Assembly (NCBI RefSeq): GCF_023734115.1
Contig: NZ_AP025737.1
Coordinates: 1,364,001-1,428,000 of the forward strand
Direction: 5' to 3'
Origin: Herbiconiux sp. L3-i23
GTDB lineage: Bacteria; Actinomycetota; Actinomycetes; Actinomycetales; Microbacteriaceae
DNA length: 64,000 nt
Numbering within the stretch: position 1 is the first letter of the stretch; the number at the start of each line of letters is the position of its first letter. Below the pieces are notes generated by a model, which was given only the letters and a program-made list of their open reading frames with translations, searched no databases and was not told the origin of the DNA. The position numbers and the translations under genes were made by a program. This document shows, piece by piece, positions 5,191 through 49,440 of the stretch.

Positions 5191-6717
5191 TTACCGCATC
5201 GCCCGAGCGATCACCTCGCCGACCAGCACCGCAGAGGCGGCAGGGCCGCGGCGCGGGGTGTCGGGCAGGATCGACGTGTCCGCCACCCGGAGTCCGGTGA
5301 CCCCGTGCACCCGTCCGCTGCCGTCGACGACAGCCGCGGGGTCGCTTTCCGACCCCATCGGTGCGGTGGCGCTCGCATGCACCGAGGTACCGAGGCGCGC
5401 CCCGATCCACGAGTCGAGCCGGTCGTCGTCCGAGTCGAGCAGCGCCGGTTCGGCGTTCCGAACACCGACGTCCTGCATGGCGTCGCTCGCGAGCAGCCCC
5501 GCGGCAATCCGAACGGCGTCGCGCAGCCCCGCTCGATCGGCCTGCTCGCTCAGGTACTGGTAATCGATGATCGGCGGCCCGTTCGGATCTCGCGGGTCGA
5601 GCCGGAGTGTTCCGCGCGACCGCGACACCTGCAGGGACACCAATAACGGCAACGGCAACTCCGCGCCGTCGGAGTCGTCGCCTGCGAGAACGGCGAGAGG
5701 GGTCGACGATTGCAGGATCTCGGCTTCGCCCGCCTCGCCGCGATGCTCTGTGCGCAGATTCAGAGCGTGAGAGAGCCACCGCTCCGACACCTCGAGCGGC
5801 GCCGACCGAGCCGCCTCGACGATGACCTGCGGGTGATCGGCGAACGAGGTGCCGACCGGCGAATCAGCGACGACCTCGACCCCGGCTGAGGTCAGTGCGT
5901 CGGCGGGCCCGACTCCCGACCGAAAAAGCAGCGCGGCGCTGCCGAACGCGCCCGCGCACAGCACGACCTCTCCCGCCTCGATCAGCTCCACCCGACCGGC
6001 GCGAACGACCTCCACGCCGACCGCCCGGCCGTTCTCGATTCGGATGCGGTGGACGTTCTCGTCGCCGCGGACCTCCAGATTCGATCGGCCCATCGCGGGA
6101 AGCAGGTAGGCGGCTCCCGCATTCCAGCGCACGCCATCGGCCACGTTCATCGGCACCGGCCCCACACCGATAGGACCCTCGGCGTTCTTGTCGACCTCGT
6201 CGACGTGACCCATCGAACGGGCGGCATCGGCGAACGCCCGCGACCACGCATCATCCGCTCGGGGTCTGCTGACGGGGATCGGGCCGGCGTCGCCGTGCAG
6301 GGCGGACGCACCGTAGTCGAGGTCCCGTTCCATCCGCCGCAGCACCGGCAGGACGTTCGGGTATCGCCACGCGTCGCCTCCCGCCTCCGCCCACCGTTCG
6401 AGGTCGATGCGGCGCGGGCGGATGAAGTAGCCGCCGTTCACCGCCATGGAGCCTCCGAGCATCCGCCCGCGCAGCACCGTGTAGTCGCGATCGGACGTCA
6501 GCCGGACCGGGTACCGCCACACCTCCTCCGTGCGCGGATCGGCGCCGGGGACCCGCGCCGCATCGAGCAGCGCCGAGCCAAAACCGGCCACGTCGGTCGG
6601 CACCCGCCCCGCCTCGAGCACCAGGACACGTCGATCGGGGTTCTCGGACAGCCGCGCGGCGAGTGCCGACCCGGCCGCACCGGCGCCCACGACGATGACA
6701 TCCCACCCGTCCCGCAT
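5191..6717 (-). CDS. mftG: MftG-like GMC oxidoreductase (mycofactocin dehydrogenase)
   Basis: A 508-aa GMC-family flavoprotein. The FAD-binding GAGAAGSALAARLSE is near residue 11, RGRMLGGSMAVNGGYFIRPRR (about 84-104) is the GMC signature 1 region, and the C-terminal block has HASATAPMG, VADTSILPDTPRRGPAASA. The GGYFIRPRR form and the compact length are typical of MftG, the enzyme that re-oxidises mycofactocinol and passes electrons to the respiratory chain. The gene overlaps the upstream mftR1 by one base (TGATG), indicating translational coupling. It lies next to the precursor gene mftA, which supports the assignment over a generic choline-type GMC enzyme. Confidence 0.85.
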   Translation of the reverse strand: MRDGWDVIVVGAGAAGSALAARLSENPDRRVLVLEAGRVPTDVAGFGSALLDAARVPGADPRTEEVWRYPVRLTSDRDYTVLRGRMLGGSMAVNGGYFIRPRRIDLERWAEAGGDAWRYPNVLPVLRRMERDLDYGASALHGDAGPIPVSRPRADDAWSRAFADAARSMGHVDEVDKNAEGPIGVGPVPMNVADGVRWNAGAAYLLPAMGRSNLEVRGDENVHRIRIENGRAVGVEVVRAGRVELIEAGEVVLCAGAFGSAALLFRSGVGPADALTSAGVEVVADSPVGTSFADHPQVIVEAARSAPLEVSERWLSHALNLRTEHRGEAGEAEILQSSTPLAVLAGDDSDGAELPLPLLVSLQVSRSRGTLRLDPRDPNGPPIIDYQYLSEQADRAGLRDAVRIAAGLLASDAMQDVGVRNAEPALLDSDDDRLDSWIGARLGTSVHASATAPMGSESDPAAVVDGSGRVHGVTGLRVADTSILPDTPRRGPAASAVLVGEVIARAMR

Positions 6718-7328
6718 CAGTCGCGCCTCAGCTGGTGTCGTTCGAACACGGCGAACGCCGCGTCAATCAGCGTCGCGAGATCCGCGTCGTCGTGCCGGAG
6801 CCACTGCTCGTAGGCCGAAAGCGAGAGCGAGAGTAGTGCCCAGCCGAGGGTCTGCGGCTCGAGGTCGTCGGCGGAGAGGCCGAGACGCTCGGCTGCGTAC
6901 TCGGCGATCACCTGCCGCCACGAGGCGTAGCGGAGGGTCGAATGGGCGACGAGCGAGGGAACGTTCAGCAGCAGCGTCATTCGCTGGCGGTGGTACTCGA
7001 TCTCCTCGTCGGGGAACGCGTTGAACTCGATGACCGCCGCGTGCAGGGCGTCGATCAGCGGCACCTCCGGCGGCACGGACGCGAGGTAGTCGCGCATCGA
7101 GTCGAGCAGGTCCTCGAACTCGCCCCACGGCAGGTCGTTCTTCGATGAGAAATAGCGGAAGAAGGTGCGTCGCCCGATTCCGGCCGCTGTGGCGATGTCG
7201 TCGACCGTCGTGGCATCGAAGCCGTTCTCGATGAACAGTGCGAGCCCGATGTGGCTCAGCTCGGTGACGGTGGTCGATCGTTGCCGCCCGGTCCGGGGGC
7301 GAGGAACCGACGGATCCGCCTCACTCAT
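6717..7328 (-). CDS. mftR: TetR-family regulator, MftR-type (copy 1)
   Basis: A 203-aa TetR/AcrR regulator. The helix-turn-helix is in TTVDDIATAAGIGRRTFFRYFSSKND, ending with the FFRYFSSKNDLPWGEF wording that is characteristic of mycofactocin regulators. The C-terminal ligand domain includes FNAFPDEEIEYHRQRMTLLLNVPSL. The MftR studied in mycobacteria responds to long-chain acyl-CoA and controls mft expression, so the same is plausible here. The ATG at 7328 was chosen because AGGAAAGGGG sits before it. A GTG at 7352 is an alternative. It is the first gene of a two-gene unit with mftG and is divergent from mftA. Confidence 0.88.
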   Translation of the reverse strand: MSEADPSVPRPRTGRQRSTTVTELSHIGLALFIENGFDATTVDDIATAAGIGRRTFFRYFSSKNDLPWGEFEDLLDSMRDYLASVPPEVPLIDALHAAVIEFNAFPDEEIEYHRQRMTLLLNVPSLVAHSTLRYASWRQVIAEYAAERLGLSADDLEPQTLGWALLSLSLSAYEQWLRHDDADLATLIDAAFAVFERHQLRRD

Positions 7329-7423
7329 CGATCTGCCCCTTTCCTTCGGCACTGGGTGTCATTAGTCTCGAACGCAAGCAGAGAAATCGCCAACAGAGCC
7401 GATTCTCGTCGTGAGGAGCAACG
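7329..7423. promoter_or_regulatory. Divergent promoter region mftR1 / mftA
   Basis: This 95-nt gap must hold the start signals for both mftR1-mftG (leftward) and mftA (rightward). It is locally less GC-rich (GTCATTAGTCTCGAAC, AGAGAAATCG). The mftA ribosome site GTGAGGAGC is at its right end. I could not find a clear palindrome matching the operator candidate at 24776-24796. Confidence 0.45.
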
Positions 7424-7558
7424 ATGCACATCGCCGAACCGACCGCCTCGAACCTGTCGTTCAGTGCCGACGAATCCGTCACCGTCGGCGAATTCGTCGG
7501 CCGAGCCGACGCCCATTTCGAGAAGGCTTCGATCGAGAGCCTGTGCAGCGTCTACTGA
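7424..7558 (+). CDS. mftA: Mycofactocin precursor peptide MftA (variant CSVY C-terminus)
   Basis: A 44-codon gene with the good ribosome site GAGGAGC 5 nt before the ATG. The product is an acidic leader followed by KASIESLCSVY. The MftA family ends in S-I-D-G-M-C-G-V-Y. The match S-I-(D/E)-x-(M/L)-C-x-V-Y at the exact C-terminus, the length and the location between mftR/mftG and MFT-type SDRs make this a precursor. MftC normally decarboxylates and crosslinks the terminal Val-Tyr, and MftE releases it after the Gly. Here that Gly is Ser, which is unusual. The maturases MftB, MftC and MftE are not encoded in the window. The gene is too short for normal ORF cut-offs. Confidence 0.88.
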   Translation: MHIAEPTASNLSFSADESVTVGEFVGRADAHFEKASIESLCSVY

Positions 7559-7924
7559 GCCGACGCTCGACCATTCTCGGGCCGATGCGCTTCCGACCCC
7601 GATCACCACACGCCGCAGGGTGCGACCAGACACCGCACGCCGGTCTCTCAGATCGCACCCGTCGCAGTGTTCCCGGTCGCGGCTTCGCCAGCCAGGGCAC
7701 GAGACGAGATCCTCACCGTGGGAGTGACCAGCCCACCTTCACAAGGAAGCTGCCGCGTATGCAGCGCCGACCCCGCTCGAGGAGGTTACGGCTGCTGACA
7801 CCGAGACACCCCGCGGGCCGCCCCATCGGGTGAGTGCGCGTGAACCAAGCGCGGGTTCCGACCGGAACCTGTGATCGACGGCCCCGAACCGGGGACCTGG
7901 ATGAGAGAAAGAAGGTGCACGCAC
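7559..7924. other. Non-coding gap between mftA and first SDR, with an inverted repeat
   Basis: About 365 nt without a credible gene. I looked for an MftB-like small protein in it and found none. A perfect inverted repeat GGGTGCGA / TCGCACCC occupies 7618-7625 and 7653-7660. It could form a stem with a 27-nt loop or be an operator, and there is no T-tract. The ribosome site of the next gene (GAGAGAAAGAAGG) lies at the right end. Confidence 0.5.
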
Positions 7925-8731
7925 ATGGGGCGTGTTGAAGGAAAAGTCGCGTTCGTCACCGGGGCAGCTCGTGGTCAAGGGCGTTCGCACGCGCTGCGAC
8001 TGGCGCAGGAGGGCGCCGACATCATCGCGGTCGACATCGCGGAGCACATTCCGAACATCGCCTACCCGTCCCCGACCGAGGAGGACCTCGCTGAGACGGT
8101 GCGGCAGGTCGAAGCGCTCGACCGTCGCATTATCGCCACGAAGGCGGACGTCCGCGATCGGGGAGCGTTGAAGAAGGCGATCGACGACGGCGTGGCCGAG
8201 CTCGGACATCTCGACATCGTGGTCGCCAACGCCGGAATCTGCGTTGTCGCCGATTGGCAGAACACCACGGAAGACATCTGGGATCAGACCGTCGACACGA
8301 ACCTCAAGGGTGTCTGGAACACGATCTCGCTCACCGCCCCGCACCTCATCGAAGCCGGCGGCGGATCGATGATCCTGACCAGCTCGGCCGCCGGGCTCAA
8401 GGGCCTGCCGTTCCTCAGCGCCTACGTTGCAGCGAAGCACGGTGTCGTCGGTCTCATGCGGGCCTACGCGACCGAATTGGCTCAGCACAACATCCGCGTC
8501 AACACCATCCACCCGACAGGCGTCGAGACGCCGATGGGTGAGATGGGCAACGCCTTCGGTCCGCTGCTCGAGAAGAACCCGGCCGTGGGCGGCATGCTCG
8601 CCAATCTGCTGCCGATCCAGAGCACCAAGCCGGTCGACCAGAGCAACGCGGTGCTGTTCCTCGCCTCCGACGAGGCCCGTTACATCACCTCGCTCGCCAT
8701 GACGGTGGACGCCGGCAACACGCAGTACTGA
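7925..8731 (+). CDS. Mycofactocin-coupled SDR family oxidoreductase 1
   Basis: A 268-aa short-chain dehydrogenase of the mycofactocin-coupled subfamily. The diagnostic wording is FVTGAARGQGRSHALRLAQ at the N-terminus, then the extra segment EDLAETVRQVEALDRRIIA between beta-2 and beta-3. It also has ANAGI, LTSSAAG (Ser) and YVAAKHG (YxxxK). Members hold a tightly bound nicotinamide and pass electrons to mycofactocin rather than exchanging NAD. The substrate is likely an alcohol/carbonyl pair (carveol dehydrogenase is a known relative). The ATG at 7925 has GAAGG ahead of it. A strong hairpin follows, so it may be transcribed separately from the next four. Confidence 0.9.
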   Translation: MGRVEGKVAFVTGAARGQGRSHALRLAQEGADIIAVDIAEHIPNIAYPSPTEEDLAETVRQVEALDRRIIATKADVRDRGALKKAIDDGVAELGHLDIVVANAGICVVADWQNTTEDIWDQTVDTNLKGVWNTISLTAPHLIEAGGGSMILTSSAAGLKGLPFLSAYVAAKHGVVGLMRAYATELAQHNIRVNTIHPTGVETPMGEMGNAFGPLLEKNPAVGGMLANLLPIQSTKPVDQSNAVLFLASDEARYITSLAMTVDAGNTQY

Positions 8732-8774: not shown

Positions 8775-8878
8775 CAGTAGGCGCCCTAGCGGGCGCATCT
8801 GACGGAAGACGGCCCCGGCCACGCCTTCCGTCCCTTCTCGGCCGGGACGATGAAGATCCAGCTAAGGAAATGAACACA

Positions 8879-9697
8879 ATGGGCAACACACTCGAAGGCA
8901 GAGTCGCCTTCATCACCGGTGCGGCGCGCGGTCAGGGCCGCAGCCACGCCATCCGGCTCGCGCAAGAGGGAGCCGACATCATCGCGATCGACATCAATGC
9001 GCAGATCGAGAGCGTCAAGTACCCGATGTCGACACCGGAGGACATGGAGGAGACGGTCCGGCAGGTCGAAGCGCTCGACCGGCGGATCGTCGCCCGCACC
9101 GCCGATGTGCGCGACCGGGCCGCACTGCAGGCGGTGTTCGACGAGGGCACCGCGGAGCTGGGTCCAGTCGACATCGTGCTCGGCAACGCCGGCATCGCGC
9201 CCATGTCGATGTCTCCCACCGAGCAAGAGTGGTTCGACGTCCTCGACGTCAATCTCACCGGCGTCTACAACACCGTCGAGGTCGCCAAGCCGTCGATGAT
9301 CGAGGGAGGCCGGGGCGGGGCGATCGTGCTCACCAGCTCCACCGCCGGCATCGCGGGCATCGGCGGGAACTCGCCCGGCGGACTCGGCTACACGGCCGCC
9401 AAGCACGGGGTCGTCGGCTTGATGCGCGCCTATGCCAATCAGCTGGCCGAGTACAGCATCCGCGTCAACACGATCCACCCGACCGGGGTGAACACGCCGA
9501 TGGTCATGAACGACGTCATCCAGGAGTTCCTGCAGAGCGACCCGTCCATGTCTCAGGCGATCCAGAACGCACTTCCCGTTCCGATGATCGAGGCGGTCGA
9601 CCTATCGAACGCGATCCTCTTCCTCGTCTCGGACGCCGCCCGTTACATCACGGGCGTCACCCTGCCGGTCGACGCCGGCTTCCTCAACAAGAAGTGA
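8879..9697 (+). CDS. Mycofactocin-coupled SDR family oxidoreductase 2
   Basis: A 272-aa paralogue of SDR 1 with the same subfamily marks: FITGAARGQGRSHAIRLAQ, MEETVRQVEALDRRIVA, GNAGI, LTSSTAG and YTAAKHG (YxxxK). The region before the catalytic Tyr is longer (GGNSPGGLG) than in the other copies, which may change the substrate pocket. The ATG at 8879 (AAGGAA 7 nt upstream) is preferred to the ATG at 8870, which would lie almost on top of the ribosome site. It is followed after 23 nt by SDR 3 and probably begins the operon SDR2-SDR3-SDR4-moxR-vwa. Confidence 0.9.
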   Translation: MGNTLEGRVAFITGAARGQGRSHAIRLAQEGADIIAIDINAQIESVKYPMSTPEDMEETVRQVEALDRRIVARTADVRDRAALQAVFDEGTAELGPVDIVLGNAGIAPMSMSPTEQEWFDVLDVNLTGVYNTVEVAKPSMIEGGRGGAIVLTSSTAGIAGIGGNSPGGLGYTAAKHGVVGLMRAYANQLAEYSIRVNTIHPTGVNTPMVMNDVIQEFLQSDPSMSQAIQNALPVPMIEAVDLSNAILFLVSDAARYITGVTLPVDAGFLNKK

Positions 9698-9720
9698 CGG
9701 AGAGGCAAGGAGAAGGACTG

Positions 9721-10560
9721 ATGGCAGGACGAGTCGAAGGCAAAGTCGCCTTCATCACCGGCGCGGCACGCGGACAGGGACGCAGCCACGCGTTGCGACT
9801 CGCGCAGGAGGGCGCCGACATCATCGCGATCGACGCCTGCGAGAAGCAGCCGAACACGCCCTACGACGGGGCGACCGAGGAGGACCTGCAGGAGACGGTG
9901 CGGCAGGTCGAGGCGCTCGACCGTCGCATCGTGGCGACGAAAGCCGACGTGCGGGACTTCGCGCAGCTGAAGGGCGCCGTCGACGACGGGGTCGCCGAAC
10001 TCGGCCGGCTCGACATCGTGTCGGCGAACGCGGGGATCAGCGGCATGCCGCACCTCTCGGAGGAGATCGAGGACTCCGAGTGGGTCGACATGCCGGAGGT
10101 CAACCTCAACGGAGTGTGGCGCACCTGCAAAGCGGCGATCCCTCACCTGAAGGCGAATGGGAAGAAGGGCGGGTCGATCATCCTCACCAGCTCGGACGCC
10201 GGCCTGTTCGCCTACCAGAACATTTCGCACTACGTGGCCGCAAAGCACGGCGTCGTCGGGCTCATGCGTACCTTGGCGCTCGAGCTCGGGCCGCACTTCA
10301 TCCGCGTGAACAGCATCCACCCGACGACGGTCGACACTCCCATGGTGCAGAACGACGACATCTACAGGCTGTTCCGGCCCGACCTCGACTCGCCGACGAA
10401 GCAGGACTTCGCCGACGCGGCCACGCAGATGAACTCCCTCCCGATCCCGTGGGTCGAGGCAGTGGACATCAGCAACGCCCTGTTGTTCCTCGCCTCCGAC
10501 GAGTCGCGCTACATCACCGGGGTGCCCCTCCCGGTCGATGCGGGCGCGGCGGTGAAGTAG
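9721..10560 (+). CDS. Mycofactocin-coupled SDR family oxidoreductase 3
   Basis: A 279-aa member of the same subfamily. Its start MAGRVEGKVAFITGAARG is shared almost exactly with SDR 4, showing recent tandem duplication. It has LQETVRQVEALDRRIVA, ANAGI, LTSSDAG and YVAAKHG. It carries the longer C-terminal loop IYRLFRPDLDSPTKQDF that copies 4 and 5 also have and copies 1 and 2 lack, so the five genes fall into two groups. The ribosome site AAGGAGAAGG lies just before the ATG. The next gene starts 7 nt after the stop. Confidence 0.9.
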   Translation: MAGRVEGKVAFITGAARGQGRSHALRLAQEGADIIAIDACEKQPNTPYDGATEEDLQETVRQVEALDRRIVATKADVRDFAQLKGAVDDGVAELGRLDIVSANAGISGMPHLSEEIEDSEWVDMPEVNLNGVWRTCKAAIPHLKANGKKGGSIILTSSDAGLFAYQNISHYVAAKHGVVGLMRTLALELGPHFIRVNSIHPTTVDTPMVQNDDIYRLFRPDLDSPTKQDFADAATQMNSLPIPWVEAVDISNALLFLASDESRYITGVPLPVDAGAAVK

Positions 10561-10567
10561 GCGCACG

Positions 10568-11410
10568 ATGGCAGGACGCGTCGAAGGCAAGGTGGCCTTC
10601 ATCACGGGCGCAGCCCGAGGCCAGGGTCGCAGCCACGCGCTGCGACTCGCCCAGGAGGGAGCCGACATCATCGCGGTCGACGTCGCGGAGCCGCTGCCCG
10701 GGATGGACCGGTATTACGCCGGCGCGACTCAGGCCGACCTCGACGAGACGGTGCGGCAGGTCGAAGCGCTCGATCGGCGCATCATCGCGCGCAAGGCCGA
10801 CGTCCGCGACTACGGGGCTCTGAAGGGCGCCCTCGACGAAGGGGTCGCCGAGCTCGGCCACGTCGACATCGTGAGCGCGAACGCGGGCATCTTCGCGTTC
10901 GGTGACAAGACGCAGGACGTCACCGACGAGGAGTGGGACCTCGTCAACGACATCAACGCGAAGGGCGTCTGGCACACGGCGAAGGCGGTGATCCCGCACC
11001 TCATCGAGCAGGGCACGGGCGGATCGATCATCCTGACCAGCTCGACCGCGGGCATCAAGGGCACCCCGAACGTGGCGGCGTACACGGCGAGCAAACACGC
11101 GGTGGTGGGCATCATGCGCACCCTCGCGCTCGAGCTCGCCCCGCACCGAATCCGGGTGAACACGGTGCACCCCACCGGGGTCGCGACGGACATGATCCTC
11201 AATGAGGCGACCTTCCGCCTCTTCATGCCCGACGTCGAGCATCCGACCAAGGAGCAGGCGGCACCGATCTTCGAAGGCACGAACGCGCTGCCCATTCCGT
11301 GGGTGGAGGCGGTCGACATCTCGAACGCGGTGCTGTTCCTCGCCAGCGACGAGGCACGGTACGTGACCGGGACCGAGCTCAAGGTCGACGCGGGATACAC
11401 GATCAAGTGA
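10568..11410 (+). CDS. Mycofactocin-coupled SDR family oxidoreductase 4
   Basis: A 280-aa paralogue. Rossmann motif FITGAARGQGRSHALRLAQ, insert LDETVRQVEALDRRIIA, ANAGI, LTSSTAG and YTASKHA (YxxxK) are all present, and the long C-terminal loop is TFRLFMPDVEHPTKEQA. It is the member directly upstream of the MoxR ATPase gene, and the spacing (23 nt to the chosen ATG) indicates co-transcription. Confidence 0.9.
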   Translation: MAGRVEGKVAFITGAARGQGRSHALRLAQEGADIIAVDVAEPLPGMDRYYAGATQADLDETVRQVEALDRRIIARKADVRDYGALKGALDEGVAELGHVDIVSANAGIFAFGDKTQDVTDEEWDLVNDINAKGVWHTAKAVIPHLIEQGTGGSIILTSSTAGIKGTPNVAAYTASKHAVVGIMRTLALELAPHRIRVNTVHPTGVATDMILNEATFRLFMPDVEHPTKEQAAPIFEGTNALPIPWVEAVDISNAVLFLASDEARYVTGTELKVDAGYTIK

Positions 11411-11433
11411 CAGCGGAAGTAGGAGAGGTGTCG

Positions 11434-12363
11434 ATGGAACGCACGACGCAGACCGGGGGAGGGCGCCTCACCGAAAGCCGTGCTCGTATCGCCGAACGCA
11501 TCGTCGGCCGTGAGCGTGAGTTGGAGCTCACGCTCGCGGCCGTCGCCGCGGGGCGCGACATGCTGCTCGAGGGGCCGCCCGGTACCAGCAAGACGACCAT
11601 GCTGAAGGCGATCACCGAGGAGTGGGGCATCCCGCTGTTCTTCGTCGAGGGCAATGCCGACCTGACACCCGCGAAGATCGTGGGTCATCACAATCCTTCG
11701 CGCGTGTTGAAGGAGGATTACAGCGCCGACAACTTTGTCGCGGGCCCTCTCGTCGAGGCGATGCAGCACGGCGGGTTCCTCTACATCGAGGAGTTCAACC
11801 GTGCCCCCGAGGACACCCTCAACACTCTGCTCACGGCGATGGCCGATCGTCGAATCTCGATTCCCCGAGTGGGAACGGTGGCGGCGAAACCGACCTTCCG
11901 GGTGATCGCGTCGATGAATCCGTACGACAACGTGGGCACCACGCGGCTGTCGACCAGTGTGCACGACCGCCTCAACCGGCTCGCCGTCGACTACCAGGAC
12001 GAGGAGGCGGAGCGGGGCATCGTCGCTCTGCGAACCGGGGTGACCGGTCCGCTCGGCGAGCGTCAGATCGCCGACTCCGTCGCGGTGACCCGTGCCACTC
12101 GCACGCATCCGGATGTGCGCCAGGGCAGCAGCGTGCGTGGAGCGATCGACTGCGTTCTCGTGGCATCGCAACTCGCTGTGCTGCGCGGAGTCGAGCGCGC
12201 GGACGACGAGCGGTACGCCGAGCTGATGTACGACGCGATGATCGTCTCGCTCTCGGGGCGCATCCACCTCGACGAGGCGATCGGCACGACGCCGGAGCGG
12301 GTGCTGCGTGAGATCTGGGAAGACCGGTTCATTCTCGAACCGGCGACCGCGGCGCCGGGTTGA
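11434..12363 (+). CDS. MoxR-family AAA+ ATPase
   Basis: A 309-aa MoxR-type ATPase. Walker A is EGPPGTSKTTM (residues about 46-56, with Ser before Lys instead of the more usual Gly), Walker B is FLYIEEFNRAP (about 112), the sensor is VIASMNPYDNVGTTRLS and the lid follows. MoxR ATPases act as chaperones that insert metals or cofactors into an enzyme, together with a VWA protein, which is encoded next. The pairing here, inside an SDR array, suggests activation of an oxidoreductase of the same pathway. The start is the ATG at 11434 behind GGAGAGG. In-frame GTG codons at 11428 and 11407 are alternatives. Confidence 0.88.
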   Translation: MERTTQTGGGRLTESRARIAERIVGRERELELTLAAVAAGRDMLLEGPPGTSKTTMLKAITEEWGIPLFFVEGNADLTPAKIVGHHNPSRVLKEDYSADNFVAGPLVEAMQHGGFLYIEEFNRAPEDTLNTLLTAMADRRISIPRVGTVAAKPTFRVIASMNPYDNVGTTRLSTSVHDRLNRLAVDYQDEEAERGIVALRTGVTGPLGERQIADSVAVTRATRTHPDVRQGSSVRGAIDCVLVASQLAVLRGVERADDERYAELMYDAMIVSLSGRIHLDEAIGTTPERVLREIWEDRFILEPATAAPG

Positions 12364-12462: not shown

Positions 12463-13338
12463 GTGTTCGAGCCGTCGGCGGGTTCGGGAGGTTTCGTACT
12501 TCAGCCGCGGGCGCGGGAGCGCGCCGCTGGCGGGGAGACGCGTCCGGGCGGTGTCGTCGCGGGGTTCACCGACGAGAAGGGTGAACTGGTGGGCATCGAC
12601 GAGTTCGCCGAGGTCGACCAGCTCGTGCGGCAGCGGGCGCGACAGATCGCATCGCGGCTGGCCCTGCGCAAGCCCCGCAACGACGCGTCCGCCCGTCGCG
12701 GCGTCGGGGACCTGATGAGCATGCCGTACCGGGGCGGCTCCGACGACATCGACCTCGACCGCACCATCGAGCTGCTGGCAGAGCGCCCGATGCCCGAGGA
12801 CGAGGACATCATCGTCCGAGACCGGATGCGCACGGGACGTTCAGTCGTGCTCGCCGTCGACGTGAGCGGATCGATGAAGGGCGAACGGGTGAGGACGGCG
12901 GCGGCGACCGTCGGTGCGCTGGCGGCCGAGCTGCAACGCGACGACCTCGGCGTGCTCGCGTTCTGGTCGGATGCGGCGATCCTGCTTCCGCTCGGCGCAG
13001 ACGTGCGACCTCTCGAGGTGCTCGACGACCTGCTCCGCATCCCGGCGCGGGGTCTGACCAATGTGAGCTTCCCGCTGGAGATCGCGGCGACGCAGCTCGC
13101 CGGGGCTCCGGCGCGCGACTCGCGGGTCGTGCTCCTCTCGGACTGCGTGCACAACGCAGGCCCCGACCCTCGCGTCGCCGCCGCACGGCTCCCAAGACTC
13201 GACGTGCTGCTCGACACCAGCGGCGAGAAAGACGTCGAACTCGGCCGCGACCTCGCTCGCGTCGGGCGGGGTCGGTTCCGCGCGATCCGCTCTTTCCACG
13301 ACGTCGCCCCGGCGCTCAGCGCTCTGTTCTCCGAGTGA
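12463..13338 (+). CDS. VWA domain protein, MoxR partner
   Basis: A 291-aa protein. Residues 1-120 are charged and disordered-looking. A von Willebrand factor A domain follows, with the metal-site motif AVDVSGSMKGERVR near residue 131-144, then LAFWSDAAILLP, PARGLTNVSFPLE (Thr of the MIDAS) and VVLLSDCVHNAG (Asp). All MIDAS residues are present. VWA proteins next to MoxR bind the target enzyme and stimulate the ATPase. It is in the same frame as moxR, with 99 nt between stop and the GTG start. The ribosome site (GACGAGG) is weak, so the true start could be a non-standard codon further upstream. Confidence 0.82.
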   Translation: MFEPSAGSGGFVLQPRARERAAGGETRPGGVVAGFTDEKGELVGIDEFAEVDQLVRQRARQIASRLALRKPRNDASARRGVGDLMSMPYRGGSDDIDLDRTIELLAERPMPEDEDIIVRDRMRTGRSVVLAVDVSGSMKGERVRTAAATVGALAAELQRDDLGVLAFWSDAAILLPLGADVRPLEVLDDLLRIPARGLTNVSFPLEIAATQLAGAPARDSRVVLLSDCVHNAGPDPRVAAARLPRLDVLLDTSGEKDVELGRDLARVGRGRFRAIRSFHDVAPALSALFSE

Positions 13339-13523
13339 TGAGTGCCGCGGGGTGGAACCGAGGTCGCACGCGTGCTCGACATCGTGAGGGCAGCCATCCC
13401 TTCGAGCGAGGGAGAACTCAGGAAGGGCGTCGGTGGCAGCCGCTGCTGTAGCGCTACGCAGATCTCCTGCGAGATGCAGGGAGAATGCCCGCCACGAAGC
13501 GGGAACGAGAGAAGGAAGAAGCA

Positions 13524-14351
13524 ATGGGCAAGCTAGATGGCAAGGTCGCGTTCATCACCGGCGCGGCCCGAGGACAGGGTCGAAGCCACGCGGTGCGTTT
13601 GGCGCAAGAGGGTGCCGACATCATCGCGATCGATATCGCGGGCCCGGTCGAGACGGTGCCATACCCGGGAGCGACTCCGGACGACCTGGCTGAGACGGTG
13701 CGGCAGGTCGAAGCGCTCGACCGCCGCATCGTCGCGACGAAGGCCGACGTGCGCGATGCCGCCGCGCTCAAGGCCGCCGTCGATGACGGGGTCGCGCAGC
13801 TGGGCCGGCTCGACATTGTGCTTGCGAACGCGGGCATCTCCACGCCGGCATCCACGCTCGAGATGGACGAGGAGGTCTGGCAGACGATGATCGATGTCAA
13901 CCTCACCGGAGTGTGGAAGACACTCAAGGCCTCGGTTCCGCACATCATCGCCGGTGGTCGCGGCGGGGCAGTCGTGATCACGAGCTCCCTCGCGGCGATC
14001 TACGCGAACCCGAACACCGCGCACTACTCCGCGGCGAAGGCTGGGCTGGTCATGCTCTCGAAGGTGCTCGCCAAAGAGCTCGGACCGCAGTCGATTCGCG
14101 TGAACACGGTGCACCCGACGACGGTTGCCACCGACATGATCCTCAACGACGCGACCTACCGGCTGTTCCGACCCGACCTCGAGCAGCCGACTCGCGCGGA
14201 CTTCGAGCAGGCTGCGCTCACCCTCAACAAGCTGCCCATCCCGGCGATCGAGTCTGAGGACATCTCGAACGCGATCCTCTATCTCGTCTCCGACGACGGG
14301 CGATACGTGACCGGGACGACCCACATCGTCGATGCCGGCGGTCAGTTGTGA
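13524..14351 (+). CDS. Mycofactocin-coupled SDR family oxidoreductase 5
   Basis: A 275-aa fifth paralogue: FITGAARGQGRSHAVRLAQ, LAETVRQVEALDRRIVA, ANAGI, ITSSLAA and YSAAKAG (YxxxK). The long C-terminal loop TYRLFRPDLEQPTRADF groups it with copies 3 and 4. The ATG at 13524 has AAGGAAG in front and is preferred over the open upstream frame. It is separated from the VWA gene by 185 nt and may have its own promoter. A strong hairpin follows it. Confidence 0.9.
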   Translation: MGKLDGKVAFITGAARGQGRSHAVRLAQEGADIIAIDIAGPVETVPYPGATPDDLAETVRQVEALDRRIVATKADVRDAAALKAAVDDGVAQLGRLDIVLANAGISTPASTLEMDEEVWQTMIDVNLTGVWKTLKASVPHIIAGGRGGAVVITSSLAAIYANPNTAHYSAAKAGLVMLSKVLAKELGPQSIRVNTVHPTTVATDMILNDATYRLFRPDLEQPTRADFEQAALTLNKLPIPAIESEDISNAILYLVSDDGRYVTGTTHIVDAGGQL

Positions 14352-14372
14352 TTCTTCGCTAACGACCTCGAA

Positions 14373-14410
14373 TGCCGGGCGGGACCTCGTGCTCGAGGGC
14401 CCGCCCGGCA
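14373..14410. terminator. Perfect hairpin after SDR 5, terminator candidate
   Basis: TGCCGGGCGGG (14373-14383) and CCCGCCCGGCA (14400-14410) are perfectly complementary, and CTCG/CGAG inside the loop extends the pairing. The hairpin lies 22 nt after the SDR 5 stop codon. No U-tract is present. Confidence 0.6.
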
Positions 14411-14476
14411 CGAGGGAGTCGAGGTGGGAGAAGTTATTGTGCTGAACATGCCTCTCGTCGACGACAGCGCGACCGA

Positions 14477-15493
14477 ATGACCGCGGACACTGCGCTCGGC
14501 GGCACATCGCGTCGCCCATCGGTGGTGGTCGCGGTGGACGGCGGCGGTGAGAAGACGGATGCTGTCGTGCTCACCATCGAAGGCGAGTTGAGGGCGCGCG
14601 TCACAGGGCCTGGGTCCAGCCCGCGCGTAGCGGGAGTCGAGAAGGCCGCCGCGACGCTCGAGGACATCGTGGGCACCGTGCTCGCCGAAGCCGGTGAAAC
14701 GACACCGGACGGTGTTCATGCGTTCGTGTCGGGTTTGAATCTGCCGGACGACACCGTTGCTCTTCGCGCCGCGCTCGGTCGTGCGCCGTGGACGCATCGA
14801 GCGGTTCTCACGCTCGACAACGACATGCCCGCGTTGCTGCGAGCGGGCACCGACGCCGCAGACGCGGTCGCCGTCGTGTGTGGAACGGGAATCAACGCGC
14901 TGGGCGTTCGCGCGGACGGCGCCACCGCGACCTTCGCCGCGCTCGGCACGATAAGCGGTGACTGGGGCGGCGGCTGGGAGCTGGGTCAACAGGCCCTCTG
15001 GCACGCTGCCCGATCCCGGGACGGGCGGGGCCCGGCCACGCTCCTCGCCGACGCCATCCCCGCTGCCTTCGGGATGTCGACTCTGGACGACGTCATCGCC
15101 GCGCTGGACGGAGGCCGGCTGCCTCATGCAGAACTGCGCCGCCTCGCTCCGGTCCTTCTGACCGCGGCCACCTCGGGCGACGAGGTAGCCGGCGCCCTCG
15201 TCGACCGTCAGGCCGACGAGATCATCACGTTGGCGTGCGCTGCACTGAACCGGCTGCAGCTCAGCAACGCTGCGGTCCCGGTGGTGTTCGGCGGCGGCGT
15301 CATCGCTTCCGGCAATCCGCGCCTGAGCCGCGGCATCCGAGACGGACTGGCTGAACGCGCCCCCCATGCGCACCCGGTCCTGCTGAAGACCGCCCCCATC
15401 GTGGGTGCCGGGGTACTGGCCGTCGCGGCAGCCGGCGGCGACGATCACGCTCGTGCACGAGCACGCGCAGCCCTCACCGCCGGCCAGCACTGA
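14477..15493 (+). CDS. BadF/BadG-type ATPase, N-acetylglucosamine-kinase-like sugar kinase
   Basis: A 338-aa ASKHA-fold kinase. VAVDGGGEKTDAVVL (phosphate-1, about 15-29), LTLDNDMPALLRAG, VVCGTGINALG (phosphate-2), GTISGDWGGGWELGQQAL and FGGGVIASGNPRL (adenosine site) are in the family order. Relatives phosphorylate N-acetylglucosamine or related sugars. Mycofactocin carries a glucose chain, so a role in handling released sugar is possible but unproven. The ATG at 14477 overlaps the stop (ATGA) of a 13-codon frame (14439-14480) that has its own GGTGGGAG site, so translation may be coupled to that leader. It is convergent with livF. Confidence 0.8.
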   Translation: MTADTALGGTSRRPSVVVAVDGGGEKTDAVVLTIEGELRARVTGPGSSPRVAGVEKAAATLEDIVGTVLAEAGETTPDGVHAFVSGLNLPDDTVALRAALGRAPWTHRAVLTLDNDMPALLRAGTDAADAVAVVCGTGINALGVRADGATATFAALGTISGDWGGGWELGQQALWHAARSRDGRGPATLLADAIPAAFGMSTLDDVIAALDGGRLPHAELRRLAPVLLTAATSGDEVAGALVDRQADEIITLACAALNRLQLSNAAVPVVFGGGVIASGNPRLSRGIRDGLAERAPHAHPVLLKTAPIVGAGVLAVAAAGGDDHARARARAALTAGQH

Positions 15494-15541: not shown

Positions 15542-16252
15542 TCAACTGAAGTCATCGGGGTCTGCCAGGTAGGGGGCCGCGAGCGCGGCTCTGTCGCTCA
15601 GAAGGTCGACGCACGGGGCGGATCGGACGATGCGACCGCCCTGCATGATGTGGGCCGTGGTCCCGATCGCGAGGGCTTGCTCCGCGAACTGTTCCACGAG
15701 CAGAACTCCGACGCCCGTGGAGGCGAGATCGGCGAGGGTCTGCATGAGGCTGTTCACGACCATCGGCGCCAGGCCGAGGGAGAGCTCGTCGACGAGGAGG
15801 AGGCGTGGCCGCGTGGCCAGAGCGCGGGCGATGACGAGCATCTGCTGCTCACCGCCCGAGAGGAGCCCTGCGCGCGTGGTGCGCTTCTCGGCGAGGCGGG
15901 GGAAGAGCTCGAACGCACGTCGGAGTGCGGACGGTGAGCGGTCCACCACGGCGATGTTCTGTGTCACCGTGAGGTGTCCGAACACGCTGCGACCCTGTTC
16001 GATGTACGCGAGCCCATGCCTGGCGCGCCGGTGCATCGTCATGGTGTCGATGCGGCGTCCCTGCAGCGTCACGGCTCCGTCCGCGGGCGGAATCACGCCG
16101 GCGATCCCGTCGAGCAGGGTGGTCTTCCCTGCTCCGTTGGCGCCGAGCAGCACGGTGATCTCGCCCTCGGGCACGACGAGGGAGATGTTGCGGCAGATGG
16201 TCAGTCCGCCGCGCCTCAGGGTGAGAGCCGAGACGTGCAGCCCGCCGGTCAT
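15542..16252 (-). CDS. livF: Branched-chain-type ABC transporter ATPase LivF
   Basis: A 236-aa ABC ATPase: Walker A LLGANGAGKTTLLDG (about 33-47), signature LLSGGEQQMLVIARAL (about 130) and Walker B LLLVDELSLGLAP. ELSLGLAP in place of EPSLGLAP is usual for LivF. It is the last gene of the leftward operon and starts within the end of the fused livM/livG gene (ATGA overlap). Together with LivG, LivM, LivH and the binding protein it makes a complete importer of the hydrophobic-amino-acid/amide class. Confidence 0.92.
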   Translation of the reverse strand: MTGGLHVSALTLRRGGLTICRNISLVVPEGEITVLLGANGAGKTTLLDGIAGVIPPADGAVTLQGRRIDTMTMHRRARHGLAYIEQGRSVFGHLTVTQNIAVVDRSPSALRRAFELFPRLAEKRTTRAGLLSGGEQQMLVIARALATRPRLLLVDELSLGLAPMVVNSLMQTLADLASTGVGVLLVEQFAEQALAIGTTAHIMQGGRIVRSAPCVDLLSDRAALAAPYLADPDDFS

Positions 16253-18039
16253 GCCGCCGCCTCCGTGCCGAGATACGCTGCGACGACCCGCGGGTCGCGC
16301 AGTACCTCGGCCACCGGCCCGGAGCTGATCACGCGGCCCTCGTCGAGCACCGTGGCACGACGGGCGGCCACTCGGATGAAGCCCATGTCGTGTTCGATCA
16401 GCAGCACCGACGTGCCGAAAGTGTCGGGAATGCGTCGCACGAGTTCAGCGAAGGCATGATGCTCCTCCTCGCCCAGGCCGGCCGCGGGCTCGTCGAGCAA
16501 CAGCACGCCGGGCCGCGAGGCGAGAGCCGCCGCGACCTCGAGGATGCGGCGCGATCCGATGTCCATGAGCCGGATCGGGACATCGCCGTCCGGCAGGCCG
16601 AAGAACGTATGCACGACGTCGACGGGCATACCCTCTGCGGCTAAGCACAGATACTCGGCCACCGTGAGCGCCTCGACCGCGCGCGATTGCTGGAAGGTGC
16701 GCCGGATCCCAAGCTTCGCCCTCCGGCGGGCGGAGAGAGCGTCGACGGATGTGCCGTCGAACATCACGCTGCCCTGGTGGCGAGCAAGGAAGCCCGTGAC
16801 CGCGTCGACGAGGGTCGACTTCCCCGCACCGTTCGGCCCGATGAGCGCCTGCACCTCTCCCACCGCGAGATCGAGATCGACCCCGTCCAGGGCGCGATTG
16901 CCGCCGAAGTCGACCGTCAGTCCGCGGACGCTCAGGCGCGGCCGGCGCTCAGCCGCACCCGCGCCGGCCTCAGCGCCGGCGAGATCGGGACCCGCGCCCG
17001 ACCTCGCCGTCTCTGCGATCTCGCACGTGACCCTGACATCGCGGAAGGAACGCTCCTCACGCCACCTCGTGAACTGTTCCATGAGCCCGCCATTGCCGCG
17101 ACGTAGGGTGTCGAACGCGCCGATGGCGAGCAGCGCGTTGCCGAGATCGAGCGGAAGGTCCAAGCGCCTGAGCACCTCGGGGATGAGCACACCGAACGCG
17201 CCCGCCAGCACAGCGCCGCTGAACAGTGCGGCACCGCACAGCACCGCCGTCGCCAGGGAGACGAGTGACGCGAGGGGACTGAACACGCTCGTCGTGAGCA
17301 GACCGTATTGCCCGGCGAGCAGGCCACCCGCGAGCCCAGCGATCAGCGCCGACGTCCCGAACGCCGTGGCCTTCGACGCAAGGACCGGGACGCCGAGCGA
17401 TGCTGCTGCTCGTTCGCCGCCCCGCACGGCCTGCCAGCTGACACCGTGCCGCGACCGGGCGAGGGCAGCGACCCCGAGCTGCGTCACGATGAGCACAGCC
17501 ACGGCGAAGACGGTGAACCAGCGCGCATCATCGAATGGAGCAGTGGGCAGCACCGGAACCCCCTGCCCAACGCCGGGGAAGCTGGTCTGCCGGAGTACGA
17601 GGTCGAGCGCGGTGGCGAAGCCGAGCGTCACGACCGCGAGCTCTACCCCTCGGATCCGGGCCGTCACGACGCCGATCACCGTCCCGATGGGGAAAGTGGC
17701 GAGCCCCCCGAGCAGCACGAGAACGGGGAAGGGAGCGGAGGGCCACTGCAGCGCGAGCCAGGAGACGACCCAGCCTCCAATGGCGGCGAACGACAGCTGG
17801 CAGAGCGTGATGATGCCGACCTGGCCGGTGAGAAGGCCGATGCTGCGCGCCACCAGCGCGCCGACCCCGACCGTCGACAGCAGGTACACCCAGTAGAAGG
17901 GGAGGAACGCGGACAGCAGAGCGACGACTGCGAGGAAGACTGCGCCGGCGAACATCGACCGGGCACGTCGGGCCCGCCGCCGCGCGGCGGCATCCGGCGG
18001 CCTCGGCGTCACCTCGCGCCGTCCCTCATCGGGCCTCAC
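16249..18039 (-). CDS. Fused ABC permease-ATPase (LivM-LivG)
   Basis: A 596-aa two-domain protein. Residues about 30-320 are a LivM-type permease with 8-10 hydrophobic segments and the family block ARSRHGVSWQAVRGGERAA. Residues about 350-596 are a LivG-type ATPase with Walker A LIGPNGAGKSTLVDAVTGF, RRTFQQSRAVEALTV, Walker B VLLLDEPAAGLGEEEHH and LLIEHDMGFI. Fused LivM-LivG proteins are known in actinobacteria. A recognisable signature (LSGGQ) is weak: EYLCLAAEG... IGSRRILEVAAALASRP. The GTG at 18039 follows GGGAGGTG and overlaps the livH end by 14 nt. Confidence 0.9.
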   Translation of the reverse strand: MRPDEGRREVTPRPPDAAARRRARRARSMFAGAVFLAVVALLSAFLPFYWVYLLSTVGVGALVARSIGLLTGQVGIITLCQLSFAAIGGWVVSWLALQWPSAPFPVLVLLGGLATFPIGTVIGVVTARIRGVELAVVTLGFATALDLVLRQTSFPGVGQGVPVLPTAPFDDARWFTVFAVAVLIVTQLGVAALARSRHGVSWQAVRGGERAAASLGVPVLASKATAFGTSALIAGLAGGLLAGQYGLLTTSVFSPLASLVSLATAVLCGAALFSGAVLAGAFGVLIPEVLRRLDLPLDLGNALLAIGAFDTLRRGNGGLMEQFTRWREERSFRDVRVTCEIAETARSGAGPDLAGAEAGAGAAERRPRLSVRGLTVDFGGNRALDGVDLDLAVGEVQALIGPNGAGKSTLVDAVTGFLARHQGSVMFDGTSVDALSARRRAKLGIRRTFQQSRAVEALTVAEYLCLAAEGMPVDVVHTFFGLPDGDVPIRLMDIGSRRILEVAAALASRPGVLLLDEPAAGLGEEEHHAFAELVRRIPDTFGTSVLLIEHDMGFIRVAARRATVLDEGRVISSGPVAEVLRDPRVVAAYLGTEAAA

Positions 18040-18889
18040 CCCACACCTCCCGCCTGCGTTGCCAGATGAGCGCGACGATGATGATGACGAACGGAAGCGC
18101 GCCTCGATAATCGGCGACGAGCGGCAGGTGCACGCCGACTCCCTCGAGGGCGCCGATGGCGAGACCACCCGCAGCCGCGACCCAGACATTCGTGAAGGCC
18201 CCGAGGAGCCCCGCCGCGAGAGCAGGGACCACGAGGAACGCCATCGTCTCGAACGTCGGATTCCGGGTGGGCGCGACGAGGAGCATGGCCAGGGTCGACA
18301 CCGCCCCGGTCGCCGCCCACGCGCCGATCGCGAGCCGATGCGAGTTCACGCCGAGCAGTTGAGCAGTCGTCGGCCGCTCGGACATCGCCTGCAGGCGGAG
18401 GCCGATCTGCGTCCGTGAGAGCAGCAGCGACAGGCCTCCCGCGAGGAGGAAGGTGAGCGCCAGCGCGACGACGGTCGTCAGGGAGACCCGAACACCGCCG
18501 AGGTCGAACGACACCGCGGGAACCAGGCTCGGCATGACCCGCGGAGAGTCGCCGAACAGGCGGAACCCGAGCGTGAGCACGAGGATCAGCAGCACCACTG
18601 CGACCGTGGCCCGGACGGTTTCCGTCGGTTCCGCGAACCAGCGCGCGAACAGCCCCCCGGCGAGCGCCGACGCCGACGCCGCGGCCGCGACGCCGAGGAT
18701 CGCCGCGACGGGCAGCGGAACGCCCAGCCCGAGAAGGGTGTAGCAGCTGTAGGCCCCGAGGCCTCCGAGCGCCGCCTGGCCGACGTTCAACACCCCTCCG
18801 AGCCGGTACAGCACGACGATGCATACGGCGAGAATCGCGTAGGCGGCCCCATTGACCAGTCCGGCGACGAGGCTTTCAAGCATGATCAC
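18026..18889 (-). CDS. livH: Branched-chain-type ABC permease LivH
   Basis: A 287-aa membrane protein beginning MIMLESLVAGLVNGAAYAIL, with about 8 hydrophobic segments. It contains the permease block SRTQIGLRLQAMSERPTTAQLLGVN, which matches the LivH EAA-like cytoplasmic loop. It pairs with the permease half of the fused gene to form the membrane channel. The start is 51 nt from the stop of the binding-protein gene in the same operon. Confidence 0.9.
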   Translation of the reverse strand: MIMLESLVAGLVNGAAYAILAVCIVVLYRLGGVLNVGQAALGGLGAYSCYTLLGLGVPLPVAAILGVAAAASASALAGGLFARWFAEPTETVRATVAVVLLILVLTLGFRLFGDSPRVMPSLVPAVSFDLGGVRVSLTTVVALALTFLLAGGLSLLLSRTQIGLRLQAMSERPTTAQLLGVNSHRLAIGAWAATGAVSTLAMLLVAPTRNPTFETMAFLVVPALAAGLLGAFTNVWVAAAGGLAIGALEGVGVHLPLVADYRGALPFVIIIVALIWQRRREVWGEAR

Positions 18890-18940: not shown

Positions 18941-20131
18941 TTACTCCGGAACCTCGACCCAGTCGCCGACGGGCTCCCACCCGTTCTCCGTCGCCCGCAC
19001 CATCATGCTCGCCCGGTTCGGATTGTGCGCATCGGAGTCGTCGAACACGTACGGCATACCCATGAGCGGGTTCTCGATCTCGCCGGCGCCGCGCAGGGCC
19101 TCTGCCACCGATTCTGCGGTGATCTCTCCGTCGATGCTCCTCAGCACCTCGACGAGGATCTGCGCCGCCACGTAGCCGCCCTCGGACAGCGAGGTGATCG
19201 GCACATCAGCCGCTTCCAGGGTCTCGCGCCACTCGGCGACTTCGGGAGCGTCGGCGGAGGCGGGGAGGAACTCGGAGTTGGCGTACACGCCATCGGTCGT
19301 TCCCTGCGCCTGCAACGCCTCGATGGCGGAGTCGGTGTAGACGTTGGACAGCATCAGCCAATCGGCCTGATCGAGGACGCCCTGCTGCTGGACGGTGTTC
19401 ATGAACGACACACCCTCGGGCTCGGTGGGGTTCACAGCGACAGCATCGCAGCCCGCATCCTTCACGGCGAGAATCGCCGGGGTCGGGTCGTCGCCGAGAT
19501 TGACCGACGTGTCGACGTGCGCGAACGTCATGCCCGCCTTGTCTTGCCACGCGTCGAGCAATGCCAGGTACGGCTCGGTGAGCCCCTCGCTCTTGAGGAT
19601 CACCGGGCAGATCCGCTCCGCCTCGAGCTCATCCTTGGCGAACCAGAGGAGGCTCTCGTAGCCGTTGAAGGTGCCGGCGTTGACGGGCGCGATGTTCCTC
19701 GAACCGAAGCAGGACGGCTCGACGCCCGTGCCCATGATGTTCACGACGTCGCGCTGCTCGTAGAAGGCCGCGTTGGCGCTGCACTCGACGAGGCTGGCCC
19801 CGCCGACCATCGCGACGACGCCCTCTTCGTCGACGAGTCGACGGGCCGACTGGCTGGCCTTGGCAGGATCGGCCCCGTCGTCCTCGGAGAAGTACTCGAT
19901 CATGCGCCCGTTGATTCCGCCCTCGTCGTTCACCTGGTCGAACACCGCCTGCGCGGCTCCGGGTACCTCGGGGAAGGGCGCGGGACCGGTGAGCGAGCTG
20001 ATGGCTCCGATCTTGATGGGCTGATCGGAACTGCCTGGCTCTCCCGAATCCGACGAGCAGCCGGTCGCCGCGAGGCCGACGACGAGGGACAGCGACAGCA
20101 GCAGGACACTCCGGTTGGCGCGCGACGACAT
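18941..20131 (-). CDS. ABC transporter substrate-binding lipoprotein (Leu/Ile/Val-binding family)
   Basis: A 396-aa extracytoplasmic binding protein. The signal peptide SVLLLSLSLVVGLAATGCSSDSG has a clear lipobox (LAATGC). The mature part starts IKIGAISSLTGP and continues with the periplasmic-binding-protein type 1 pattern, including INGRMIEYFSEDDGADPAKASQSARRL and SEGGYVAAQILVEVL. The ATG at 20131 follows GAGGAAG. The open frame extends upstream to 20320, but that part is Arg-rich and antisense-like. It lies 61 nt downstream of mftF1 on the same strand, so the importer is likely co-transcribed with mycofactocin genes. The ligand is unknown. Confidence 0.9.
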   Translation of the reverse strand: MSSRANRSVLLLSLSLVVGLAATGCSSDSGEPGSSDQPIKIGAISSLTGPAPFPEVPGAAQAVFDQVNDEGGINGRMIEYFSEDDGADPAKASQSARRLVDEEGVVAMVGGASLVECSANAAFYEQRDVVNIMGTGVEPSCFGSRNIAPVNAGTFNGYESLLWFAKDELEAERICPVILKSEGLTEPYLALLDAWQDKAGMTFAHVDTSVNLGDDPTPAILAVKDAGCDAVAVNPTEPEGVSFMNTVQQQGVLDQADWLMLSNVYTDSAIEALQAQGTTDGVYANSEFLPASADAPEVAEWRETLEAADVPITSLSEGGYVAAQILVEVLRSIDGEITAESVAEALRGAGEIENPLMGMPYVFDDSDAHNPNRASMMVRATENGWEPVGDWVEVPE

Positions 20132-24696: not shown

Positions 24697-24775
24697 CGGC
24701 TGTTCCTTCGTTGGTAATGCCGCCACGGCCTCGAGAGTTGAGTGGTACCCGCCATGATTCCACCTCTGCGTGCCT

Positions 24776-24796
24776 TTTTGGCGCTCGATGCCAAAA
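24776..24796. promoter_or_regulatory. Operator candidate for MftR2 (inverted repeat)
   Basis: TTTTGGC (24776-24782) and GCCAAAA (24790-24796) form a perfect inverted repeat with a 7-nt spacer in the space between mftF2 and mftR2. AT-rich arms in otherwise very GC-rich DNA, the symmetry and the position between divergent genes fit a TetR-family operator that would control both directions. Confidence 0.55.
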
Positions 24797-24911
24797 TCAG
24801 TCGAAGGCTCCGATGCGTTCGCGGGCCGGTACGCGGTACTGTCCATCACCGAGATGAGGAGCTTCTCCATCTCGCCCGCCTTCCGGCTGACTTTCGAGAA
24901 GGGATGCCACT

Positions 24912-49280: not shown

Positions 49281-49440
49281 CCGAATCCCAGCCGGCCGTT
49301 GCGACCCTTTGCTGCGGGGTGTGGGGGGGGGTAATTGCTGCAAGCGGCGTGCGCAGGACTGGCGACACCACAATGTCGTCCATCCTCAATATGCTGACCC
49401 GTGCTGGATTAGCTCATGCTCATGCATGGAGGGGGCTTCA

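Follow-up and report, generated by a model that had tools for sequence, protein, structure and literature searches.

A probably degenerate mftA in a Herbiconiux locus that may use mycofactocin without making its core

The mycofactocin (MFT) locus of Herbiconiux sp. L3-i23 has lost mftB, mftC and mftE, and in the position of the precursor gene mftA it carries a 44-codon open reading frame (ORF) whose product ends in CSVY. On balance, we regard this ORF as a degenerate remnant of mftA and the locus as one that uses mycofactocin but is unable to make its core, with an imported precursor probably supplying the core. The pathway break falls at AHDP: the makers A, B, C and E are gone or eroded, and D, F, G and the SDRs are kept. 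The absence of mftBCE, with a “potential mftA” still present, has already been reported for this strain, the only one singled out among the 312 genomes treated by Graca et al. (2025, eLife, PMC11778925); in the part of that article consulted, the account is a single sentence that gives no peptide sequence, transporter, second case or salvage idea. Herbiconiux belongs to the Microbacteriaceae, as do most of the named relatives that share this gene order.

The window, that is, the whole stretch of 64,000 nucleotides that was analysed, contains the following features of the locus, given with position, strand and model matches.

5191 to 6717, minus strand: mftG, GMC dehydrogenase (TIGR03970, 454 bits; cut-off, 387)
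6717 to 7352, minus strand: mftR, TetR-type regulator (TIGR03968, 268 bits; cut-off, 225)
7348 to 7365, plus strand: operator-like sequence GGCACTGGGTGTCATTAG, between mftR and the CSVY peptide
7413 to 7418, plus strand: ribosome-binding site GAGGAG, ATG 5 nucleotides downstream
7424 to 7558, plus strand: MftA-like 44-amino-acid ORF ending SIESLCSVY, read here as a degenerate mftA
7926 to 8731, plus strand: mycofactocin-coupled SDR 1 (TIGR03971, 369 bits, over cut-off; longer frame, 7871 to 8731)
8870 to 9697, plus strand: mycofactocin-coupled SDR 2 (TIGR03971, 380 bits)
9709 to 10560, plus strand: mycofactocin-coupled SDR 3 (TIGR03971, 397 bits; longer frame, 9229 to 10560)
10568 to 11410, plus strand: mycofactocin-coupled SDR 4 (TIGR03971, 392 bits)
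11419 to 12363, plus strand: MoxR-type AAA ATPase, start approximate (PF07728, PF07726)
12463 to 13338, plus strand: VWA/CoxE-type protein, kept in relatives (PF13519)
13485 to 14351, plus strand: mycofactocin-coupled SDR 5 (TIGR03971, 395 bits)
15542 to 16252, minus strand: livF-type ABC ATPase (PF00005)
16249 to 18189, minus strand: livM-livG fusion of permease and ATPase, whose real start is probably close to 18012 (PF02653, PF00005)
18026 to 18889, minus strand: livH-type permease (PF02653)
18941 to 20131, minus strand: livK-type lipoprotein binding protein (PF13458)
20193 to 21752, minus strand: mftF1, divergent glycosyltransferase (TIGR03965, 301 bits; cut-off, 280; tree)
21816 to 23093, minus strand: mftD, premycofactocin synthase (TIGR03966, 659 bits)
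23185 to 24870, minus strand: mftF2, divergent glycosyltransferase (TIGR03965, 321 bits; cut-off, 280; tree)
24912 to 25547, plus strand: second MftR-like regulator, divergent from mftF2 (TIGR03968, 181 bits, under the cut-off of 225; PF17754)

A BadF/BcrAD-type ATPase gene, weakly NagK-like (14372 to 15493, plus strand), lies between the last SDR gene and livF, and the ORF survey also returned an open frame of 2,355 codons at 48820 to 55887 (plus strand).

All five SDRs exceed the TIGR03971 cut-off and MftG and MftR exceed theirs, as expected of a locus that uses mycofactocin. In relatives, the usual order is mftG and mftR followed by mftA, mftB, mftC, the SDR genes, MoxR, VWA, mftD, mftE and mftF. 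The window agrees with this canonical cluster in the order of mftG, mftR, the mftA position, SDRs, MoxR and VWA, and in having MftD, MftG and MftR over their model cut-offs. It differs in lacking mftB, mftC and mftE, in having an eroded mftA, after which the SDR genes follow directly, in having two divergent mftF genes, and in that its mftD-mftF block is reversed and stands in line with an ABC importer.

The ORF at 7424 to 7558 (plus strand) translates as MHIAEPTASNLSFSADESVTVGEFVGRADAHFEKASIESLCSVY followed by a stop codon. Its last residues are KASIESLCSVY and it falls under the usual gene-length cut-offs, as the preliminary description of this DNA had stated; the setting given there, between mftR/mftG and MFT-type SDRs, is likewise borne out by the model scores. 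It is a short ORF with a ribosome-binding site, adjoining mftR in the mftA slot. Its GC3 of 0.84 is coding-like, and the spacing of the GAGGAG sequence resembles that of mftA in a relative (G143). The operator-like motif GGCACTGGGTGTCATTAG was derived in the present analysis from relatives, to which it is common and in which it lies upstream of mftA; it is a candidate binding site for MftR. The last 14 residues of the peptide score 34 (BLOSUM62) against LVEEVSIDGMCGVY, whereas the runner-up among the 1,309 stop-ended frames of at least 20 codons in the window scores 12. The top tail among 507,517 such frames from 300 shuffled windows, in which two-base blocks were moved so that dinucleotides were only roughly preserved, scores 28. 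The likeness to mftA is therefore not a matter of chance, and a chance ORF was ruled out.

The CSVY ORF shares with MftA precursors (TIGR03969) its short length, its place beside mftR, a C-x-V-Y end and an S-I-acidic-x-hydrophobic-C tail, but the family model misses it: TIGR03969 matched nothing at E <= 10, neither across the whole genome nor in the peptide itself, and the peptide matched no NCBIfam or Pfam model. Seven of the last eight residues of MftA are described as invariant in the consulted part of the 2011 survey by Haft (PMC3023750), yet only four of eight (I, C, V and Y) are equal between IESLCSVY and IDGMCGVY, and the invariant CGVY end of the family is absent.

MftD exceeds its cut-off in 34 of the 398 family genomes, the window's genome counted. 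Up to 40 kb around MftD was taken from the other 33, giving 34 stretches, of which 23 have MftC and all 23 of these a CGVY peptide; the remaining 11, six of them cut by contig ends, have no C-x-VY peptide. Among 27 named loci with MftR, a set that overlaps the first in some genomes, MftC and a CGVY peptide occur together in the same 21 and six have neither. When the codon before Val was left free in the search pattern, 114 matches were found in 111 of 394 class genomes, with Gly in all 114. This pattern requires an otherwise near-canonical tail and so would miss eroded peptides; it also misses the CSVY peptide of the window. The preliminary description was thus right that the known family ends in CGVY and that Ser occupies the family's Gly position here.

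In genome-wide searches, MftC was absent from L. weissii (G445), G482 and Homoserinimonas sp. OAct 916 (G119) and present in G449, a congener of L. weissii. It was missing in 7 of the 16 entries checked: Homoserinimonas twice (G119, L134), G445, G419, G260, G374 and G437, the last only 81% complete. Microbacterium salsuginis and Flexivirga were ruled out as MftC-less, having MftC elsewhere in their genomes. G419, G260 and G374 (L111 to L116) have MftD-like proteins over the TIGR03966 cut-off and 51 to 52% identical to MftD; the same loci contain Liv genes and encode a GMC enzyme and an aminotransferase-like protein, and the genomes have no MftC. They were ruled out as MftC-less mycofactocin loci, with no MftF or MftR match within 40 kb and neighbours that look catabolic by eye, and their MftD-like proteins are possibly misnamed as MftD.

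The Herbiconiux genome (3.18 Mb, two contigs) is rated 99.99% complete. Genome-wide model searches gave no match to MftB at E <= 10, none to MftE at E <= 1 and none to MftC over its cut-off of 265, the best MftC score, 49 bits, belonging to MoaA. The searches for MftA, MftB and MftE covered this genome; for L. weissii, G482 and Homoserinimonas, MftC was the protein searched for. The six PF04055 radical SAM proteins are MoaA, MiaB, HemW, an Rv2578c-type protein, RlmN and a spore-photoproduct-lyase-family protein; all being other enzymes, another radical SAM maturase was ruled out. Permissive blastn with the mftABC genes of three relatives found no mftB or mftC remnant at 7558 to 7926, and its sole match at the locus was 21 nucleotides of the mftA 3' end (7542 to 7562; E, 0.08). 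According to the consulted part of PMC7491314, deletion of mftC in Mycobacterium smegmatis abolishes all MFT compounds and intermediates, and deletion of mftE only lowers MFT compounds. MftC is therefore the telling absence, and since this maturase is missing the CSVY peptide would not be made into MFT.

Erosion appears to have affected the precursor selectively. Over the last 14 codons, the window's ORF compared with 41 distinct canonical tails has a mean pN of 0.26 and pS of 0.41, against a pN of 0.017 and pS of 0.50 for pairs of canonical tails, a set picked by its DGMCGVY end, so that its pN is held down. Judged by these values, the CSVY tail shows no protein-level constraint. The window's MftD, MftG and MftR keep 163 of 170, 64 of 64 and 44 of 44 invariant columns, drawn from 30, 21 and 20 other sequences, respectively, most of them from genomes with MftC; its two MftF proteins keep 60 and 61 of 87. 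Because MftD, MftG, MftR and the five mycofactocin-type SDRs look intact, mftA would be the only one eroded, and these counts, set against the raised pN of the mftA tail, point to maintenance of the using half and not of the peptide. In a codon comparison of genes other than livK, synonymous sites were near saturation and the ratios were set aside.

The genes mftF2, mftD, mftF1, livK, livH, livMG and livF follow one another head to tail on the minus strand with short gaps and are probably co-transcribed. The liv genes, on the same strand as mftD and mftF, encode a complete branched-chain-type importer comprising a lipoprotein binding protein, a free permease, a permease joined to an ATPase and a separate ATPase. 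The order mftD-mftF1-livKHMGF also occurs in line in L. weissii and G449, with identities to the window of 78 and 84% for MftD, 75 and 75% for MftF1 and 76 and 76% for LivK, respectively; close MftF1 proteins occur in 3 of the 54 genomes of the genus of L. weissii. In G482, mftD and mftF1 are followed by an SDR gene up to the contig end, with no Liv genes; an oligopeptide-type ABC importer, recognised by eye, ends beside mftG in that genome (L164, 8.5 to 13.7 kb). No Liv gene of at least 50% identity was found in 31 other mft stretches (six cut by contig ends), a count that omits G419, G260 and G374, whose Liv genes are 36 to 42% identical. Neither LivK nor mftF1 had a match of at least 60% identity on plasmids. 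For LivK, no assigned family and no close solved relative were found, and its structure model (mean pLDDT, 54) is too poor for use.

In the MftF tree, both window proteins group with those of G445, G449 and G482 (100/100), and a long branch separates this clade from the 25 others, with the bootstrap unsettled; in the MftD tree, the proteins of the same four genomes group together (100/99) within canonical MftD. The two MftF proteins of the window are paralogues of the divergent clade that flank mftD and share changes at many otherwise invariant sites. These altered sites suggest another acceptor or sugar, and the divergent clade may make a different product, a point against our interpretation.

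The importer and the missing early steps do not always go together. The window and L. weissii fit such a pairing. G449 combines the importer with a separate four-gene maker locus of mftA, mftB, mftC and mftE (L169, about 10.5 to 13.1 kb), some 280 kb away from mftD-mftF; an importer alone is thus no sign of auxotrophy. G482 (contig-end-cut) and Homoserinimonas lack MftC and have no Liv genes in line with mftD; as Homoserinimonas illustrates, loss of the makers is possible without Liv genes nearby. These three genomes weigh against our interpretation.

Among the other explanations, the one that survives best, unlikely as we consider it, is that the ORF is an mftA relic and that nothing of the MFT pathway is imported: Liv would carry a substrate of the SDRs, such as an alcohol, amine or aromatic compound, and the remaining mft genes would act otherwise or fade slowly. 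This would accommodate the coexistence in G449 of the importer block and its own mftABCE, the distance of the MftF clade from other MftF proteins and the three catabolic-looking loci in which Liv genes adjoin MftD-like genes. It fits poorly with the near-complete set of invariant columns in MftD, which points to the same substrate, with the absence of decay signs in mft genes other than mftA, and with the position of the Liv genes, which line up with mftD and mftF and not with the SDR genes.

The preliminary description regarded the peptide as a divergent mycofactocin precursor. As to descent this stands, the ORF being an mftA homologue in the mftA slot; as to function it fares badly, and it seems to us quite improbable that the peptide is a functional variant precursor which some unrecognised enzyme matures and a peptidase different from MftE cleaves. 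The ORF is intact, has a ribosome-binding site and retains C, V and Y, and in M. smegmatis MftE is not an absolute requirement (PMC7491314, in the part consulted). In a crude neutral simulation with 13 random changes, C-x-V-Y survived in only 5.6% of stop-free outcomes, so some constraint on this core is possible, although this ending was also the criterion by which the ORF was selected. Of the 13 differences from G143, 8 lie in codons 1 to 5 of the final 14. Yet the genome has no MftE, no MftB and no MftC over cut-off, and none of its other radical SAM enzymes is an evident peptide maturase. No known enzyme is thus available to modify or cleave the peptide, and the changed MftE specificity or different product proposed earlier finds no support; the former is ruled out by the lack of MftE. 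Conservation in close relatives, on which that proposal had been staked, did not emerge either: there is no convincing counterpart in 118 other genomes, ten matches besides the peptide itself (E, 0.003 to 0.72, the best ending at residue 39) being taken as noise, and the residue before Val is Gly in every class match. Nor does a C-x-VY peptide occur at the same site in the five other clusters without mftBC there, those of L. weissii, Homoserinimonas, M. salsuginis, G449 and G482.

A short ORF in the mftA place of L. weissii (L131, 9800 to 10000) ends SSPLRALCDDLRRNS and may be a more decayed mftA. Re-use of the CSVY ORF as a short regulatory or spacer ORF upstream of the SDR genes seems just as improbable as a functional precursor. 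Homoserinimonas and M. salsuginis, which have no mftBC there, do carry unrelated short ORFs behind Shine-Dalgarno-like sequences at this place, by eye (L134, L128; about 9750 to 9950), but no sequence is conserved among such ORFs and none was seen at the site in G449 or G482. Least probable of all is that the strain has mftABCE on DNA lost or unassembled: the mftABCE locus of G449 does stand apart from mftD and completeness estimates are blind to lost plasmids, but the assembly is near complete in two contigs, its 39.5-kb second contig has no match to mftB, mftC or mftE, and whole-genome searches found no MftC in L. weissii, G482 or Homoserinimonas either.

We therefore return to a user of mycofactocin without synthesis of its core. 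In this reading, mftB, mftC and mftE would have been lost and a degenerate mftA left in place; the promoter on the mftR side may still drive expression of the CSVY peptide, which would not be turned into MFT. The steps kept would be conversion of AHDP to premycofactocin by MftD, glycosylation by MftF, re-oxidation by MftG and the reactions of the MFT-type SDRs. MFT would thus be used in a cell that does not make the Val-Tyr core. This core would be acquired externally, probably in the form of AHDP or a closely related compound, and the Liv-type ABC importer in line with mftD and mftF is the best candidate for the entry route. Auxotrophs for vitamins and cofactors are known to salvage a late precursor via an ABC importer. 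The window resembles them in having lost early steps, kept late ones and an importer nearby; it differs in that the cofactor is a peptide-derived redox cofactor and in that an MFT-pathway ligand of the importer and release by producers are hypothetical here. More tentatively, and with rather less confidence, we suggest that in a Microbacteriaceae group the pathway has come apart into two modules, one for making (mftABCE) and one for finishing and import (mftD, a divergent mftF and livKHMGF), that the window's strain and L. weissii, lacking the former, live on an imported AHDP-type precursor, and that CSVY is a fossil of the change.

Published accounts, in the parts consulted, treat mycofactocin as made and used within one cell. 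The 2011 survey that named it found no associated transporter, and PMC7744413 makes no mention of extracellular MFT, both in the sections consulted (PMC3023750 for the former). In the titles and abstract openings of open-licence literature, we found no work on mycofactocin salvage, nor, as a point against our interpretation, did we find any account of extracellular MFT or AHDP. The locus also cautions that an MftA-like peptide, MftG or MFT-type SDRs are no proof that a cell synthesizes mycofactocin. We found no earlier description of transporter-linked mycofactocin salvage; if it is true, mycofactocin would be a shared good, and a locus with the steps from AHDP onward, the earlier steps missing and an importer in line makes cofactor sharing directly testable.
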